Assembly: GCA_028370155.1 (NCBI GenBank)
Contig: CP116670.1
Location: 1,736,001 to 1,800,000 of the forward strand
Length of the DNA: 64,000 bases
Direction of reading: 5' to 3'
From: Arthrobacter sp. OVS8
Lineage (GTDB): Bacteria > Actinomycetota > Actinomycetes > Actinomycetales > Micrococcaceae
Shown here: one piece after another, positions 46,528-54,103 of the stretch
How positions within the stretch are numbered: the first letter of the stretch is position 1
Layout: each line of letters begins with the position of its first letter
Position numbers and translations under genes: made by a program
The notes under the pieces: model-generated
What the model was told of the DNA's origin: nothing
What the model saw: the letters and a program-made list of their open reading frames with translations, nothing else
Database searches by the model: none

Positions 46528-47288
46528 CTACTCCCCGCGCGCCGTCGAAAGGTGCCCGGCGGCCGCGATCTCCAGATGCGTCAGGTCGGATGCCACCGTG
46601 ACGAAGGTGAACCCCTCGGCGATGCGTTGCCGGGCGACGTCACCGCTGGCCGTGTGGATGGCGGCGATCACCCCGGCGTCGTGGGCTGCCTCGCGGATGG
46701 CCACCAGCGCGGCGTTGAACTCCTCCGCCACGTCGGGATCGTTGGGGAACTTGCCGCCCACTGCCAGGCAAAGGTCGGAGGGCCGATGTACACACCGTCG
46801 ATCCCGGGCACGGTGCAGATCTCCTTGACGTTGGCCAGGCCCTCAGGAGTCTCGATCATGGCCAGGCACAGTACCGTGGCATCGGCTTCCGCCGGCGTCG
46901 GCCCAATCCGGAGCGCAGACCGCATCGGACCGTAGGACCGCATGCCGTGCGGCGGGTAACGGACGGCCCGGACAGCCGCGGCAGCTTCCTCGGCGTTGTT
47001 CACCAGCGGCACGATGACGCCGGCGGCACCGGCATCAAGTGCCTGCCCGATAAATGCGGCGTTGTTCGACGGCACGCGGACAATCCCAGCGGCTCCGGCA
47101 GCATCCACCGCCATCAGCCCGTGCAGCCACCCGGAATATCCCATCAGCCCGTGCTGGGCGTCGAGCGCGACATAGTCGTAACCCAGGCGCGCAACGCGCT
47201 CCGTGGACACCGGCGAGTCGAGCACCACCCAGTATCCGACGACGGGTTCATTGGCTCGGGCTTTTGCGGCAAACGATGCGGCACTCAT
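46528..47288 (-). CDS. HpcH/HpaI-family aldolase
   Basis: A class II, metal-dependent aldolase that cleaves 2-keto-3-deoxy or 4-hydroxy-2-oxo acids to pyruvate and an aldehyde. Marks are YDYVALDAQHGLMGYS (active His), IVRVPSNNAAFIGQALDAGA, GVIVPLVNNAEEAAAAVRA, CLAMIETPEGLANVKEI with the metal Glu, and GIDGVYIGPPTFA with the metal Asp. The frame changes near 46772 (AAGGTCGGAGGG). Repaired length is about 253 residues. It heads a leftward set with an aldo/keto reductase and a 2-hydroxyacid dehydrogenase. Confidence 0.88.
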
Positions 47289-47381
47289 GGGGCAGTCCTC
47301 TTCAGTTCAGGCAGTGCGGGTAGCGGGCCCGCAGTTCAGTCGGTTCAGTCAGTCGGTCAGTGAAGCAGTGGTTCGGGTCGG

Positions 47382-48359
47382 CTAGCGGTTGTAGTTAGGC
47401 ATCGGCCCGCGGGTCTCCGCGGCCACCGCGTCGCAGGCGGCCACGACGTCGTCGGGCAGCGGCCCCTTGTTGGCGGCGGTGATGTTGGCCTGCAACTGCT
47501 CCACTTTGGACCCGCCCAGCAGCACGGATCCCACGCCGGGCTTGCTGAGCAGCCAGCGGAATGACAGCTCCGGCAGGGGCAGACCGGCACCGTCGGCGAT
47601 GGCGGACAGCTGCCGGACGGCTTCGAACAGCCGGGGGTCCCAATAGCGCTGCTTGTACATCTCGGCCAGCCGGGAATTGCCAAACCGTCCTACCGACGGA
47701 GATTCCGTGAAGGAGTGCTTGCCGGTCAGCAGGCCGCCGCCCAGCGGGTTGTAGACCATGGTCAGCAGGCCCGTGTGCTGGGCGAACTCCAGGTACTCGT
47801 CCTCGATGCGGGTAGCCAGCAGGTTGTACAGCTGCTGGGCCACCACCGGGCGGGTGACGCCGGCGGCGTCGGCGGCCGCGTTCAGCTCGCCGATCTGCCA
47901 TGCGGCGAAATTGGACACGCCCCAGGCACGGATCTTGCCGTCGCGCATCAGCTGCCCGACGGCGTCGAGCGTCTCCGTGAGCGGCGCTTCCCGGTCCGGC
48001 TGGTGCAGATAGAACAGCTCGATGCGGTCCGTGGCCAGGCGGCGCAGGCTGCCTTCGACGGAGAGCCGGAGCCCCGTGGCGGACAGCGGCGAGTTCTCCC
48101 CGGCGTCGGCGTGCGGCATGCCGGCCTTGGACGCGAGGATCACGTGGTCCCGGCGCCCGGGCAGGAGCTTGGCGAGGATTTCCTCGCTGGCTCCTCCGGC
48201 GTAACCGTTGGCCGTGTCCACAACGGTGATGCCGGCGTCGAGCGCTGTGGAAAGCATGCCCTCGGCAATCTCCGCCGTGGCAGTGTCGCCAAACGTCATA
48301 GTTCCCAGCGCCAGCTGCGAAACGGGCAGCTCCAGGCCGGCCACGTTTGTTCCCTGCAT
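47382..48359 (-). CDS. Aldo/keto reductase
   Basis: An NADPH-dependent carbonyl reductase, 325 residues, no frameshift. The catalytic tetrad is visible: Asp and Tyr in VVDTANGYAGGASEE, Lys in ILASKAGMPH, and His in LFYLHQPDREA. The cofactor segment is KPGVGSVLLGGSKVEQL. GGAGGTAGGAAGC precedes ATG 48359; an upstream ATG at 48416 lacks this support. In this set it may reduce the aldehyde from the aldolase or interconvert hydroxy-acid precursors. Confidence 0.9.
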   Translation of the reverse strand: MQGTNVAGLELPVSQLALGTMTFGDTATAEIAEGMLSTALDAGITVVDTANGYAGGASEEILAKLLPGRRDHVILASKAGMPHADAGENSPLSATGLRLSVEGSLRRLATDRIELFYLHQPDREAPLTETLDAVGQLMRDGKIRAWGVSNFAAWQIGELNAAADAAGVTRPVVAQQLYNLLATRIEDEYLEFAQHTGLLTMVYNPLGGGLLTGKHSFTESPSVGRFGNSRLAEMYKQRYWDPRLFEAVRQLSAIADGAGLPLPELSFRWLLSKPGVGSVLLGGSKVEQLQANITAANKGPLPDDVVAACDAVAAETRGPMPNYNR

Positions 48360-48428
48360 CAGCTTCCTACCTCCATCGGTGGGGACTCCTTGGGAAGCCC
48401 CGGTCTCTACGTGCATTGTCCGTACCGG

Positions 48429-49378
48429 TCAGGCGACGGAACTGATTGGCTCTTCATTGCGCAGCACCCTCGCCACGTCCTCCACCACCATCACGCCCAT
48501 GGTGGCGTTCGCCTGGTCCGTGAAGGCACCGATGTGCGGGGTGAGGATGACGTTCGGCGCGGTCCGGACGGCGCTGTGCTGCTGGAGGGCTCCACGCTAA
48601 AGGCGTCCAGCGCGGCGCCGCCCAGGTCGCCCGTGTGCAGGCGGGCGGCGAGCGCGTCCTCGTCCACGAGGCCGCCGCGCGCCGCGTTGATGAGGAAGGC
48701 GCCCTGCTTCATGGTGGACAGCGCGGCGGAGTCCAGCAGGGGTGCGCCGCCCGGAGTCCCTGGCATGTGCAGGCTGAGGAAGTCCGCTGAGGCGATGCAC
48801 TCCTCCAGGCTGGTCTGCACGGTGTCCAGCTGGGGAAAGACCTCCGCGGGAAGGTACGGATCGTAAGCCACCACCTTCATGTCGAAGGCGCGCGCCCTGC
48901 GGGCCACCGCCTGCCCGATCCGGCCAAAGCCCACCAGGCCCAGGGTCCGGCCGGTCAGTTCGACGCCGGTGAAGCGCTCCCAGCCGCCGGCTTGGGTTGA
49001 GAGGTGGGCGGGGATGAGCTGCCGGGCGAGGGCGAGCATCAGGCCCAGGGTCAGGTCCGCCACGGCGCTGGAGTTGGATCCCGGCGCGTTCACCACCCGA
49101 ACGCCGGCGGCGGTGGCTGCGGCACAGTCGACGTTGTCCACGCCCACGCCGTGTTTGGCAACCACCTTCAGGTTTGGAGCAGCGGCGAACACGGACGCCT
49201 CCACGGCATCCAGGCCCACAATGACGGCGTCAGCGCCGCCGATCTCCTCCGCGAGATCCGCCGCGGACAGCGGATGCGCCTTAACCGGACGGCGCACCGT
49301 GAAGCCCTGGTTTTCCAGGGCCTGCCAGGGTTCCCGGGACTGCTGGCCGAAGCTGGGGGTGGTGATGAGGATTTCCAC
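48429..49378 (-). CDS. D-isomer-specific 2-hydroxyacid dehydrogenase
   Basis: A phosphoglycerate-dehydrogenase-like enzyme oxidising a 2-hydroxy acid with NAD. Marks are LKVVAKHGVGVDNVD, the NAD loop GLVGFGRIGQAVARRA, the substrate Arg in NAARGGLVDEDAL, and the Glu-His pair, with the acid in ALDAFSVEP and the His in LTPHIGAFT after repair. The frame changes near 48590 (GGAGGGCTCCACG, one base short). It starts at GTG 49378 after TTGGAGCG. Repaired length is about 316 residues. It lies 32 bp downstream of the Nramp-like carrier gene. Confidence 0.9.
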
Positions 49379-49409
49379 GAAAACGCGCTCCAAACTCTGG
49401 TGGTGGTGC

Positions 49410-50827
49410 TTAGCCGATTTCCACGCCGAAGACGGTGAGGACGGAATAGACACCGATGAACAGGACCGAGAGGCTGCTGAAGACCAACGCTACAGTCCAG
49501 AAGTTGCTGGCCCGGAAGCGGCGGTCCACCTGCTGGCGCAGGTGCCAGACGGCAATGACTACGGCCACCAGGAAGACGCCGGACGCGACGCCGCCGATCT
49601 GCACCATGATGACCGGGGACTTGATGACCAGGAAGCTGGCGGCCCAGATGATGGGCATGACCACGGTGAGGACAGAGATGATGCGCTTGCGCTTGGCGAC
49701 GTCCTTCCAATCGAAGACGCCCAGGATGCCCAGGGTGTTGGTCCACAGCCGCGGCACGGACGCGGTGGAGGCAACCAGCGTGGAGTAGAGCACGGCGAAG
49801 GCGCCGATCAGGAAGACCCAGTGGGCCCAGCCGCCCATGGTGTCCGTGTACATGCGGGAGAGGGTGACGATCATGTCGTTGCCCTTGGGGACGAGGTTCT
49901 GCGGGTGCAGGACTGCGGCGCCGATGATGTAGAAGGAAAGCGTGCAGAGGGTGCAGATCACCCACGAAACCAGGGCGTCCAGGCGCATGACCTTGATCCA
50001 GCCTTCGGCGCGTTCTGCGCGTTCGGCCGTGCCGTCCTGGGGGCCGGTCCAGCGGGCGTAGCCCTTCTCGAGGCACCAGTAGGTGTAGGTGGTCATTTCG
50101 TCCGAGCCGACGCCGGTGAGGCCGAACATGGCAATGGCGAAGCCGATGGCGCCCGCCGGCAGGGCGAAGGAGAGGCCGGTGGCGAGGTCGCCGCCGTCGT
50201 ACCCAAAGGAGGTGAGCGGCAGGCCCAGGGCCAGCGCGACGGTGACGATGGTGAAGACCACCACGGACACGAAGGCGGCGCGCTCAACAATGGAGTACTT
50301 GCCGCTGACCATCATGGTGATCACGGACGCCATGACGATGACGGTCCAGAAGGTCAGGAAGGCGTCTCCAGCGGCCCGCTCATCACGGGGAACATGATGG
50401 AGATGCAGGCCACGGCGCCGCCAATGATGCCGCCGCGCTGCAGGATCTTGGCGAAGTCCATCAGGATCCAGAGGAAGTTGATCCAGCCGCCCCGGCGGGT
50501 CTTGGGACCCACCTGGCTGTAGCCTTCGAGGGCGGTCTTGCCGGTGAGGATGGACCATTGGGCCAGTTCCATCTGCACCCAGACTTTCACCGCGGTGGAG
50601 ACGATCACCAGCCACAGCAGGACGAAGCCAGCCTGGGCACCCAGGGCGGTGGTGGTGATGAGCTCGCCGGAGCCTACAACAGCGGCGGAAAGGATGAGGC
50701 CGGGGCCCAGGTAGCGGAAGCGTCCGCGGAAGGTGGTGGGGGCAGCCACCGCATCTTCGGGGCGGAGCGCGTAGGGGTCGACCACTTTGGCGTGGTCCCG
50801 TTCCGCTGTTGTCAGTTCTGTGGTCAC
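49410..50827 (-). CDS. Nramp-fold membrane transporter lacking the metal-binding signature
   Basis: About 472 residues, roughly 11 transmembrane helices, of the Nramp (SLC11) fold. The first helix reads RYLGPGLILSAAVVGSGELI: the family metal motif DPGN is replaced by GSGE. The usual MPH motif of helix 6 is absent; the segment is FGLTGVGSDEMTTYTYWCLE. The frame changes near 50375 (GCGTCTCCAGCGG). The gene is divergent from the threonate-type kinase gene and in line with three sugar-acid enzymes, so an organic-acid carrier is more likely than a manganese importer. The function is inferred from context. Confidence 0.82.
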
Positions 50828-50926
50828 AGCAGTCTCCTTCGACTATGGATATGGAACAGCAGGGAAGCCCAAGTCAGGACGGCTCCTGTGAGCCAGCAGA
50901 CCTGTAGCGCCGCTCACATTTCCATA

Positions 50927-50945
50927 CTTGCGCGTTGCGCGCAAG
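50927..50945. promoter_or_regulatory. Palindrome in the divergent promoter region, candidate operator
   Basis: CTTGCGCG-TTG-CGCGCAAG has perfect 8-bp arms around a 3-bp centre, midway between the starts of the Nramp-like gene (50827) and the kinase gene (50990). The DeoR regulator encoded downstream is the best candidate to bind it. Confidence 0.6.
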
Positions 50946-50989
50946 CCCAGTAGCGTGATTCATGCAAGTTGACCTTCGAGGAGAACACT

Positions 50990-52226
50990 TTGTCCATCTA
51001 TGCCATCGCAGATGACCTGTCCGGTGCGGCAGAAACTGCTGCTGTGCTGGCAGGAACATGGGCGGCCTCTGCGCACAACGCGCAACCGCTGCCGGCAACA
51101 ACACCAACAATCCTAGATTTGTACTCTGCCGATGACGTAATTGTGGAGGGGCCGCCATCGGGTTCCGGCCAGCCGGCCACCCTGGTGGTGGACTCGACCA
51201 ACCGGCACCTGCCCGGAGCGGAGGCCGCCGGCCGCATGCGTGGCCTGCTGGCGGCGCGGCCGCAAGGAAGCGACGTGTTCCTGAAGTTCGATTCGCTTCT
51301 CCGGGGCAACCTGGACACGGAGCTCGTCGCCGCCATGGGCGCGGGGCCGGTGGCCTTCTGCCCCGCACTCCCGGAGCTCGGCCGCACCGTCCGCGACGGC
51401 GTCCTGGAAATCCGCGGCATCCCGCTGCACCGGACGGACCTGTGGCAGGCGGAACCCACGGAGCCCGGCCATTCGGTCACCGCCCGGCTCGCCGCCGCGT
51501 CGCCCGCCGTCGTGCCGCTGGCCACTGTCCGCGGCGGTGACCTGCAGCAGGCCTTGAGCAGCATCACCGTAGCAGGCCGCCTGGCGGTGTGCGACGCCGA
51601 AACTGACGCCGATCTGGACCGGATCGCCGCAGCGGCGCTGGGCCGGAACATCATCCTCGCGGGTGCCTCGGCACTGGCCGCCGCCATGCGCCGCAGCCGC
51701 GCTGCAACGTCGGACGTTGCGCAGTCGGACGCTCCCCGTCCGCCGCCCCGCCGGTCAGGGAATCCCCGTGCTGTTCATCCTCGGCACCGCAAGCCCGTCA
51801 ACGCGCGCCCAGCTGGCCGAGCTGGAACTGGCTGGCCTGCCGGTCCACCGCGTGCAGCCCGCTGACATCCCTTCCTTTGACCCCGGCACTGACGGCTCAG
51901 CCGCCGTCGTGGTGGACGGCCCCGTTGACACGTCGCGCTCCGGGGCGATTGTGGAGTCGCTGGCCGGGTTCGCCTTGCGGGCGCATGCCGGGCGCCATCT
52001 TGTCCTCAGCGGCGGGGAAACAGCCCGTTCGGTGCTGGACGCGCTGGGGATCCGCCGGATGCACCCGCTCGCCCAGGCCCATCCGGGCGCCGTCGTCAGC
52101 GCCACCGCGGACGGACGGCTGGTGGCGACGCGCCCCGGCAGCTTCGGTGACCGCCACAGCCTTACCCAAATCCTCACAACCATGCAGGCCCTACAAGCCG
52201 CCAACCCTGGAAAGGTCTCACCATGA
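50990..52226 (+). CDS. dtnK: Four-carbon acid sugar kinase (DUF1537 family, DtnK/OtnK-like)
   Basis: Phosphorylates the terminal hydroxyl of a four-carbon sugar acid such as threonate or erythronate. N-terminal domain: YAIADDLSGAAETAAV, VVDSTNRHLPG, VFLKFDSLLRGNLDTEL. C-terminal nucleotide domain: PVLFILGTASPSTRAQ and HLVLSGGETARSVLDALG. It starts with TTG 50990, 6 bp after AGGAG. The frame changes near 51745 (CCGCCGCCCCGCCGG, one base short). Repaired length is about 412 residues. The stop overlaps the pdxA start (ATGA). The pair with PdxA2 is the known D-threonate route to dihydroxyacetone phosphate; the exact stereoisomer cannot be read from sequence. Confidence 0.87.
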
Positions 52227-53225
52227 GCACTTCTTACATCGCCGTCACTATGGGTGACGGCGCCGGCATCGGCCCGGAGGTCATTGTGCCGGCCGTCCTC
52301 GACCAGGGAATCCTGCAGGAGTGCCGCCCGTGGTGATCGGTGACGCCCTCCGGCTGCGCCAGGCAGCGGACATCCTGGGTCTGGATGCGGACATCCAGGC
52401 GATCGAGAACGTGGAAGACGCAGTCTACACCCCGGGCCGGGTGAACGTGATTGACCTGGCGCTGCTGCCGGAGGACCTGCCCTGGGGCCAGCTCTCCCCG
52501 TGGCCGGGCACGCCGCGTACGAGTACATCCGGGTGGCCAGCGAGCTGGCGATGGCGGGGAAAGTGCAGGCCATCTGCACCGCGCCGCTCAACAAGGAGGC
52601 GCTGCACGCCGCCGGGCACATCTTCCCCGGGCACACCGAGCTGCTGGCGCAGCTGACCGGCACGGAGGAAGTGTCCATGATGCTCTCCACGCCCAAGATC
52701 CGGGTGATCCACGTGACCACGCACATCGGGTTGGTGGATGCGATCCGCAAGATCAACCCGGACCTGGTGGAGCGCACCATCCGCCGCGGCCACGAGGCAC
52801 TGGTCCGGGCGGGCATCCCGAACCCGAAGATCGGCGTTTGCGCCATCAACCCGCACGCCGGTGAGAACGGCTTGTTCGGCCAGGGCGAGGAAGCGGAGAA
52901 GATCGAGCCGGGCGTGAAGGCCGCGCAGGCTGACGGGATCAACGCGGTGGGCCCGCTGCCGGCGGACACGCTGTTCTTCCTGGCGGGCCGGGGCGATTAC
53001 GACCTGGTGGTGGCCATGTACCACGACCAGGGGCACGGCCCGGTGAAGGTGCTGGGCATCGAGGCCGGCGTGAACATCACGGTGGGCCTGCCGGTGATCC
53101 GCACGTCCGTGGACCACGGCACCGCCTTTGACATCGCCGGGAAGGCGATCGCGGATTCGCGGTCCATGGTGGAGGCGTTGCACCAGGCGGCCGAGATGGC
53201 CACCCGGCCCAGCATGGCGGTGTAG
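52223..53225 (+). CDS. pdxA2: 4-phospho-sugar-acid dehydrogenase (PdxA2 type)
   Basis: Oxidises and decarboxylates a 4-phosphorylated four-carbon acid (for example D-threonate 4-phosphate to dihydroxyacetone phosphate) with NAD. Marks are VTMGDGAGIGPEV (usual MGDPAGIGPE with D for P), TAPLNKEALHAAG, IFPGHTELLA with a metal His, GVCAINPHAGENGLFG, MYHDQGHGPVK with a second metal His, and RTSVDHGTAFDIAGK with a third. Frame changes near 52325 and 52515, each one base short. Repaired length is about 334 residues. No pyridoxine genes are adjacent, which supports the catabolic PdxA2 role. Confidence 0.88.
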
Positions 53226-53330
53226 GCGCTAGCTTGCAGGACATGTTTAGGGGCACGGGGCGACGCTGCGGGGAGTTTGGCGGGGGCCGGAACTAGCATG
53301 GTAACCACGCCCACGCGAAGGAGACCGGGA

Positions 53331-54103
53331 ATGCTGTCTGCAAATGCCAGACGCGAGGAGATCTACCACCTTGCCGTCACCACCGGCCTGGCGTCCGTGG
53401 AGGAACTTTCCGCCCGGTTCGAGGTGACCGCGTCCACCATTCGCCGCGACCTGGCTTTGCTGAACGGGCAGGGCGGCTGGCCCGCACCTATGGCGGGGCC
53501 ATGGCCCTGGGCGCGCACCCGGAGGCGTCTCTCCGGCAGCGCACCGGCGAGGCGTTTGAGCAAAAGCACGCCATCGCCCGGTGGGCGGCGTCCGTGATCC
53601 GGCCCGGGGAGAACATCCTGCTCGACGCCGGTTCCACCGTGGGTGCCCTGGCGCATGAGCTGCGCGGCTTCGAGCGGTTGTCCGTGACGACGCCGGGCAT
53701 CAACACCATGCAGGAGCTGGCCGATTCGGACGGCATCGAGGTGGACTGCCTGGGCGGCAGGCTGCGCAGCCTGAGTCAGAGTTTTGTGGGCCCGCTGGCC
53801 GAGGCGGCGTTGGAGCGGATGAGCTTTGACCGCGTGTTCCTGGGTGCCGACGCCGTCACCGCCGAGGACGGCATCTGCGAGGCCGACCACGCCCAGACCC
53901 GGCTCAAGGAACTGATGGCACGGCGCGGCAAAGTTGTGTATGTGCTGGCGGATTCGTCCAAGCTGGGCCTGCGGCCGTTCCACGCGTGGGCGCGGCTCGC
54001 GCTGCCGTGGACGCTGGTGACGGACGACGGCGCCGACCCGGGTCAGGTGCAGAAGTTCCGGGAGGCGGGTGTTGCGGTTGAGGTGGCGGCCGTCGGTAAT
54101 TGA
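53331..54103 (+). CDS. DeoR/GlpR-family transcriptional regulator
   Basis: A repressor sensing a phosphorylated sugar. The winged helix is at residues 1-60: ARREEIYHLAVTTGLASVEE, LSARFEVTASTIRRDLALL. The DeoR C-terminal domain follows: ILLDAGSTVGALAHELRG, LSVTTPGINTMQELAD, VFLGADAVTAEDGICEADHA and VYVLADSSKLGL. AAGGAG precedes ATG 53331. The frame changes near 53473 (GGGCAGGGCGGC, one base short). Repaired length is about 258 residues. Its position after the kinase/dehydrogenase pair makes it the likely regulator of the divergent locus. Confidence 0.9.

Follow-up and report, generated by a model that had tools for sequence, protein, structure and literature searches.

What does a protein with the Nramp fold carry when the residues that define metal transport in this family are replaced and its gene lies among genes of sugar-acid catabolism? 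The question is raised by a locus of Arthrobacter sp. OVS8 (one contig of 4.18 Mb, 79.7% complete and 5.65% contaminated), which falls in a window of 64,000 nucleotides (positions 1736001-1800000) that was analysed as a whole and to which the coordinates below refer. An earlier note, made from the sequence alone, had proposed an organic-acid carrier derived from the Nramp fold. The organic-acid part of that proposal gains support from a conserved linkage to sugar-acid genes and from the presence of other carriers, among them a KdgT-family permease, in the same slot of related clusters. We favour, with a probability of roughly 0.72, a protein that imports the acid of the pathway encoded by its neighbours, a 2-hydroxy sugar acid (tetronate or aldonate) being the likeliest; tetronate as the main substrate accounts for about half of this figure.

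From left to right the minus strand carries an HpcH aldolase, an aldo-keto reductase (AKR), a 2-hydroxyacid dehydrogenase and the Nramp-like gene; beyond a divergent intergenic region the plus strand carries a DUF1537 kinase together with PdxA and then a DeoR-family regulator:

46540..47288, minus strand: HpcH/HpaI-type aldolase (Pfam HpcH_HpaI, 1.3e-27; frame-broken near 46734-46782)
47382..48416, minus strand: aldo-keto reductase (Pfam Aldo_ket_red, 1.4e-62; a single whole frame)
48432..49453, minus strand: D-isomer 2-hydroxyacid dehydrogenase, the partner gene of the carrier (Pfam 2-Hacid_dh_C, 6.1e-49; frame-broken near 48560-48569)
49410..50827, minus strand: Nramp-related carrier gene with GSGE in TM1 (open reading frames and Pfam; frame-broken between 50366 and 50357)
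50929..50966, plus strand: inverted-repeat element, a proposed DeoR-family operator (shared pattern in the divergent intergenic region)
50969..53225, plus strand: DUF1537 acid-sugar kinase and PdxA-type dehydrogenase (Pfam SBD_N, NBD_C and PdxA; several frame breaks)
53331..54103, plus strand: DeoR-family regulator (Pfam DeoRC; frame-broken near 53471-53528)

The Pfam assignments bear out the neighbourhood described in the earlier note, with the kinase and PdxA divergent from the carrier gene and the dehydrogenase, AKR and aldolase in line with it; in close relatives the kinase and PdxA form a single fused gene.

The carrier gene of the window consists of two overlapping frames at its break point. 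One frame change each is also seen in the HpcH, dehydrogenase and DeoR genes, several in kinase-PdxA and none in the AKR gene. Across 46540-54103 this amounts to breaks in six of the seven cluster genes (counting kinase and PdxA separately), as an indel-rich assembly would give. A cluster on its way out, with the carrier a decayed pseudogene in OVS8, would account for the broken frame of the carrier and of most of its neighbours; we regard it as very improbable, in that the main PdxA stretch and the main DeoR stretch (197 residues) are, despite the breaks, 97% and 96% identical to those of relatives. Because hardly any cluster gene is spared and the genome is 79.7% complete, as in indel-rich assemblies, we read the breaks as probable indel errors of the assembly rather than as decay. 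Accordingly, the statement that the fold is intact stands on an intact relative (L016) and not on the window's own carrier frame.

The nearest named relatives of the window carrier are Micrococcaceae. The closest intact ones, L016 and L018 of Arthrobacter, are 79% identical to its C-terminal piece; for L016 the identity with the two pieces is 88% and 79%. Membership in the Nramp-related family, by profile and by fold, is established through such relatives rather than through the window pieces: against Pfam Nramp (PF01566, cut-off 29.8 bits) the N-terminal part scores 25.7 bits, just below the cut-off, and the C-terminal part has no match, L016 scores 58.2 bits and L010 has no match. Among the relatives scored against the NCBIfam model NF037982, 'Nramp family divalent metal transporter' (cut-off 50), L075 reaches 119.7 bits and L010 101.6. 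Homology to MntH/DMT1 is detectable, and in an alignment to solved MntH sequences the GSGE of TM1 sits opposite the canonical DPGN. GSGE is present in 49 of 49 aligned relatives (48 of the 92 gene-called relatives plus L004, all at least 43% identical to the first row) and in the N-terminal part of the window carrier, and DPGN and MPH occur in 0 of the 49. The two hallmarks of a canonical Nramp, DPGN (DxxN) in TM1 and MPH in TM6, are thus lacking, just as had been noticed from the sequence.

A missing motif alone is no proof of a changed substrate. In TM6, hhalign sets a Met opposite the canonical Met and MAFFT does not; in TM3, one MAFFT alignment pairs the Asp and Glu of E. coli MntH with Arg and Ile, and hhalign gaps that helix. 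Since the two programs disagree on both helices, we infer, rather than read off, the roles of individual residues. The TM3 arginine (Arg130 in L016 numbering) is present in 62 of the 63 rows that have a residue there together with a kinase, PdxA or HpcH call (the exception is L092), a conservation that may reflect plain common descent.

When L016 is modelled with AlphaFold2 (mean pLDDT 78.2, pTM 0.79), TM1 is broken after residue 50, at GSGE, and TM6 after residue 237, at G-V-G. The first 24 rows of a Foldseek search with this model are all Nramp, NRMT, DMT or YcsG (best E 9.9e-11). It superimposes on DraNramp (6d91) with a Z score of 35.3 at 3.0 A over 392 aligned residues, and gives Z scores of 31.9 with the YcsG integrative model (9a52) and 31.3 with NRMT (7qji). 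As the modelled L016 structure matches Nramp structures and DPGN and MPH are absent, the GSGE-type protein is, on the strength of this model, of the Nramp fold and yet no canonical Nramp.

One scan of 84,980 species genomes yielded 79 named loci, in which the partners were sought with the window proteins by tblastn (E 1e-8, at most 10 kb on each side, several contigs being short). The dehydrogenase was found in 70 of the 79, AKR in 57, HpcH in 47, PdxA in 46, DeoR in 45 and DUF1537 in 42. At 1e-20 the 62 loci with full flanks gave 62, 52, 43, 42 and 40 for the first five, in the same order, and 13 for the diverged kinase. Gene calls place the dehydrogenase in 69 of the 79 loci, always on the strand of the carrier (69 of 69) and, in 65 of 69, directly adjoining it; it precedes the carrier in 37 loci and follows it in 32. 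Every partner was found in 0 of 20 control regions of 20 kb that surround other Nramp-like genes from the same bacterial family, presence being scored inside the regions. The linkage that the earlier note had put forward for checking is therefore conserved in named genomes, and the lack of co-occurrence that the note had named as a refutation did not come about. It is lower in 14 family-genome regions, of which three are apparently the same contigs as named loci and at least six come from a sister clade: the dehydrogenase is found there in eight, PdxA in six, AKR, DUF1537 and DeoR in five each and HpcH in four.

Counts over the 79 loci are not independent events, because the loci are related by descent and were drawn from one similarity search. 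The calls resolve into 26 gene strings, many of which differ merely by a gene missed or cut off, and by our reading of them the carrier-dehydrogenase pair stands in seven or more different positions with respect to the other cluster genes. Further, the Pseudomonas row L010 falls inside the actinobacterial clade of the tree, which took in none of L101-L115 and whose deep part is unreliable owing to long branches. For seven of these distant relatives (L101, L105, L109-L111, L113 and L114) the open reading frame chosen lay in the wrong frame. Judged from gene order and phylogeny, the varying placements and the position of the Pseudomonas row argue for repeated co-selection of the carrier with sugar-acid genes. 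The pair also persists where HpcH, PdxA and DUF1537 matches are missing from full flanks (L021, L045, L057, L063 and L076). The kinase tracks the carrier less faithfully than the dehydrogenase, and therefore the substrate may belong to a sub-branch of the pathway.

The carrier type is rare: 5 of 150 genomes of the genus matched, including OVS8, with two of the others at 41% and one at 26%; in the class it was found in 7 of 394 genomes at E 1e-40, OVS8 included; and in the class of Pseudomonas dryadis there was one strong match among 369, P. dryadis itself, along with four weak ones. As a separate observation, a second, different Nramp-like gene lies in or near the sugar-acid clusters of 13 loci (L011-L014, L017, L020, L048, L074, L078-L080, L083 and L085); several of these adjoin a BNR_2 gene, and the three copies examined have GTGD in TM1.

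A fused kinase copy from the genus scores 129.7 against a D-threonate kinase cut-off of 450, and PdxA scores 336.8 against 583 for D-threonate 4-phosphate dehydrogenase, while exceeding the general PdxA cut-off (357.8 vs 290.35). For the dehydrogenase, scored on relatives' proteins, the best models are phosphoglycerate dehydrogenase and glyoxylate reductase, both below cut-off. Substitutions recur among the loci: a DHDPS-type aldolase replaces HpcH in those of Brevibacterium and Pseudomonas, and P. dryadis, whose locus is missing AKR, has an iron alcohol dehydrogenase instead, for which ErcA, sulfoacetaldehyde reductase and lactaldehyde reductase are the best models, none of them reaching its cut-off. 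An enolase resembling galactonate/gluconate dehydratases separates dehydrogenase from carrier in three loci (L022, L025 and L077) and precedes the carrier in L048; it was annotated in L025 (96.1 bits, cut-off 311) and assigned by clustering in the other loci. Such a set fits the oxidation or dehydration of a sugar acid, a pyruvate-forming aldol cleavage and the reduction of an aldehyde.

We accordingly picture a secondary carrier of the LeuT/Nramp fold that would bring in a 2-hydroxy sugar acid of the tetronate or aldonate type, presumably coupled to an ion; import, substrate and coupling ion are what we infer from this setting. In one branch the acid would be oxidised by the 2-hydroxyacid dehydrogenase, the product might next undergo retro-aldol cleavage by the HpcH aldolase (elsewhere the DHDPS-type enzyme), and the aldehyde would last be reduced by the aldo-keto reductase, this order of reactions being a prediction. 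In the other, phosphorylation by the DUF1537 kinase would precede oxidative decarboxylation by PdxA, a route that reportedly leads to dihydroxyacetone phosphate. Control by a DeoR-family repressor, through the proposed operator between the divergent arms, could have both of them induced together.

Within the genus, kinase-PdxA clusters exchange their carriers. PdxA matches are found in 54 of 101 genus genomes, the closest being often fused to the kinase. Among 33 genus regions (G093 and 32 picked from the match list, with the window additional), 23 have an SBP5-type ABC importer of five genes, four a KdgT-family permease directly before the kinase, one (G093) the Nramp-type carrier, standing with the dehydrogenase, and five none of the three; the window is thus the second Nramp-type case. 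The four KdgT-type regions are a sample from about 16 genomes that have this PdxA type of 75-78% identity, and their assignment rests on annotation of the L192 protein and on clustering for the other three. The ABC binding protein has an ortholog of 97% identity in G040 and a best match of 28% (1e-30) in G093; none was found at 1e-30 in OVS8 itself (G000, an incomplete genome) or in G003, G063, G001 and G017. Since some other genera have both importer types side by side, the gene arrangements speak for an exchange of carrier modules rather than strict exclusion.

In 24 fusions (regions L131 and L162-L188) the kinase halves have a median pairwise identity of 55% vs 93% for the PdxA halves. Similarly, the kinase half of the window shares 33-39% identity with its counterparts in G003 and G093, and the main PdxA stretch is at 97%. 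A BNR_2 (sialidase-like) gene is found in 19 of the 33 regions (e.g., L162, L176 and L178), after HpcH where visible.

An inverted-repeat pattern drawn by eye is found in 23 of the 33 regions and is common to the window, G093 and most of the ABC-type loci, Nramp-type and ABC-type clusters alike. It gives 47 overlapping matches in 724 kb, which amount to about two per site because the first letter of the pattern is optional, and when 13 named loci were scanned, three had it (L016, L018 and L034). A simplified pattern has one match in the window and none in 100 shuffles of it, the pattern having been drawn from these same sequences; an unbiased 12-mer search is weak, its best word occurring in 11 of 32 regions vs up to 8 in 10 shuffles. 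The element suggests that the carrier and kinase arms may answer to one regulator through a putative operator.

Beyond this subfamily, a sister clade at 43-47% identity includes five carriers (L093-L097) paired with an enzyme like L-idonate 5-dehydrogenase, for which the two proteins scored (L093 and L005) reach 238 and 248 bits against a cut-off of 469; no such gene was found within the short flanks of L098. We also surveyed 16 plasmid neighbourhoods, made up of eight matches from the L016 search and of seven of 30 and one of 15 further listed rows, picked for spread. Sugar- or organic-acid genes lie beside nine of these Nramp-like genes (H1, H2, H6, H8, H9, H17, H21, H33 and H41) and no clear organic-acid genes beside seven (H3, H4, H5, H7, H10, H14 and H27). 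No sugar-acid enzymes were seen near the plasmid relatives of Skermanella (two), Roseomonas, which has siderophore genes there, and Microscilla. All eight plasmid-borne relatives from the L016 search are recorded as 'Nramp family divalent metal transporter'.

Some scattered cases may be set beside these. A Rubrobacter plasmid (L212) has two Nramp-like genes amid UxaA, enolase-superfamily, lactate racemase and lactate-utilisation genes; in Mesobacillus (L218) such a gene comes after CoA-transferase A/B and thiolase genes; and in haloarchaea (L222, L224) they directly precede genes for hydantoinase/oxoprolinase A and B.

The import of a sugar acid has to be weighed against two other functions, and some points tell against it: the lower linkage in the 14 family regions, the rarity of the carrier in the genus, the 5 of 33 regions without any of the three carriers, and the Skermanella, Roseomonas and Microscilla relatives that lack sugar-acid neighbours. 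The protein might still import divalent metals through an altered site and so supply the metal-using enzymes of the cluster, PdxA and the HpaI-type aldolase. Its homology to MntH/DMT1 is real, its fold is that of Nramps, and NCBIfam names its type a divalent metal transporter. TM1 retains a glutamate, but the Asp kept in canonical Nramps and NRMTs is Gly in all 49 aligned relatives. That a changed site can carry another metal is shown by NRMT, as described in PMC8806188, and YcsG is reported as a Mn2+ importer in PMC10448178. The siderophore genes next to the Roseomonas relative and the seven plasmid neighbourhoods without clear organic-acid genes point the same way, whereas the search for riboswitches does not: Rfam gave four sub-threshold matches in the window, judged to be chance and none of them a metal riboswitch, and in the loci of seven relatives nothing reached the gathering score of a riboswitch. 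Moreover, the carrier-dehydrogenase pair stays together in the five full-flank loci where HpcH, PdxA and DUF1537 gave no match, and what otherwise fills the slot is an ABC importer or a permease of the KdgT family. Taken together, we find metal import quite improbable.

Unlikely, too, is an organic acid from outside the kinase-PdxA pathway, for instance a simple D-2-hydroxyacid for the adjacent dehydrogenase, with the kinase cluster as a separate, frequent neighbour. No partner, indeed, accompanies the carrier as faithfully as the dehydrogenase (62 of 62 full-flank loci, vs 43 for HpcH and 42 for PdxA at 1e-20), and some relatives retain nothing but the pair. However, the surroundings of the pair repeatedly include kinase-PdxA-DeoR, AKR and HpcH, in several arrangements, and the ABC-type clusters of the genus share the intergenic element. 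We hence retain import of the acid of the neighbouring pathway as the preferred function.

A wider proposal can be made, tentatively and with more doubt than the function of this one protein: that Nramp-related proteins with GxG[E/D/F] in TM1 are largely organic-acid carriers (of sugar acids, and elsewhere of 5-oxoproline, hydantoin-type compounds and keto- or hydroxy-acids), that canonical metal transport arose within this group, and that the GSGE subfamily is its sugar-acid branch, with Arg130 of TM3 (L016) as a candidate carboxylate contact. In the open-licence literature we found neither a link of Nramp-type carriers to sugar-acid operons nor organic-acid cases among Nramp-related proteins other than PxpT. 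The database name 'divalent metal transporter' is likely to be wrong for the GSGE type. If these ideas are true, the annotation as metal transporters is mistaken for a set of proteins, the DUF1537/PdxA sugar-acid pathways gain an importer that they had lacked, and the question in Nramp evolution of what lets a carrier of the LeuT fold change between organic acids and metal ions can be put to a concrete subfamily.

The closest precedent is PxpT of Corynebacterium glutamicum, which according to the published account (PMC13274462) is needed for growth on 5-oxoproline, its authors leaving metals possible as substrate; the related YcsG of Bacillus subtilis is reported to raise cellular Mn2+ (PMC10448178). 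Like these, the window carrier is an Nramp-family protein encoded beside genes of organic-acid catabolism, an arrangement described for PxpT in PMC13274462; unlike them, it is partnered by the kinase, PdxA and dehydrogenase and not by pxpABC. OVS8 itself has both types, its second Nramp-like gene (L117, G000:C1:2752001-2771000) coding for a PxpT/YcsG-like protein with GPGF in TM1 and lying with genes for LamB/YcsF, carboxyltransferase and D-glutamate cyclase domains, which, to judge from PMC13274462, is the arrangement of the 5-oxoproline carrier. Taking PxpT-like proteins as stand-ins for the PxpT and YcsG sequences, L016 is 26% identical to that of OVS8 over 73 residues (E 0.029) and gives an hhalign E value of 0.12 with that of Shinella. 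With canonical Nramp/MntH (SLC11) the carrier has the fold and detectable homology in common and differs by GSGE for DPGN and the lack of MPH. The NRMT Mg2+ transporters, with the site motif DxxG-TxxA/T given in PMC8806188, are likewise Nramp-related and of the same fold; here the motif is GxxE, with Gly for the NRMT Asp in 49 of 49, and the window cluster has no Mg riboswitch. The KdgT-family permease and the SBP5-type ABC importers occupy the same slot as the carrier in the kinase-PdxA-DeoR clusters of the genus and belong to unrelated protein families. Nramp-related proteins without DPGN and MPH are a known class in the accounts of PMC12873925 and PMC4072509. According to the former, a 2026 preprint, they are paraphyletic and the canonical metal transporters branch from them; so, of the earlier idea of a carrier derived from the Nramp fold, the fold stands and the direction may be the reverse. 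What is already known is thus the class and, in PxpT (PMC13274462), one organic-acid case, from which the GSGE type is set apart as a different, uncharacterised subfamily.
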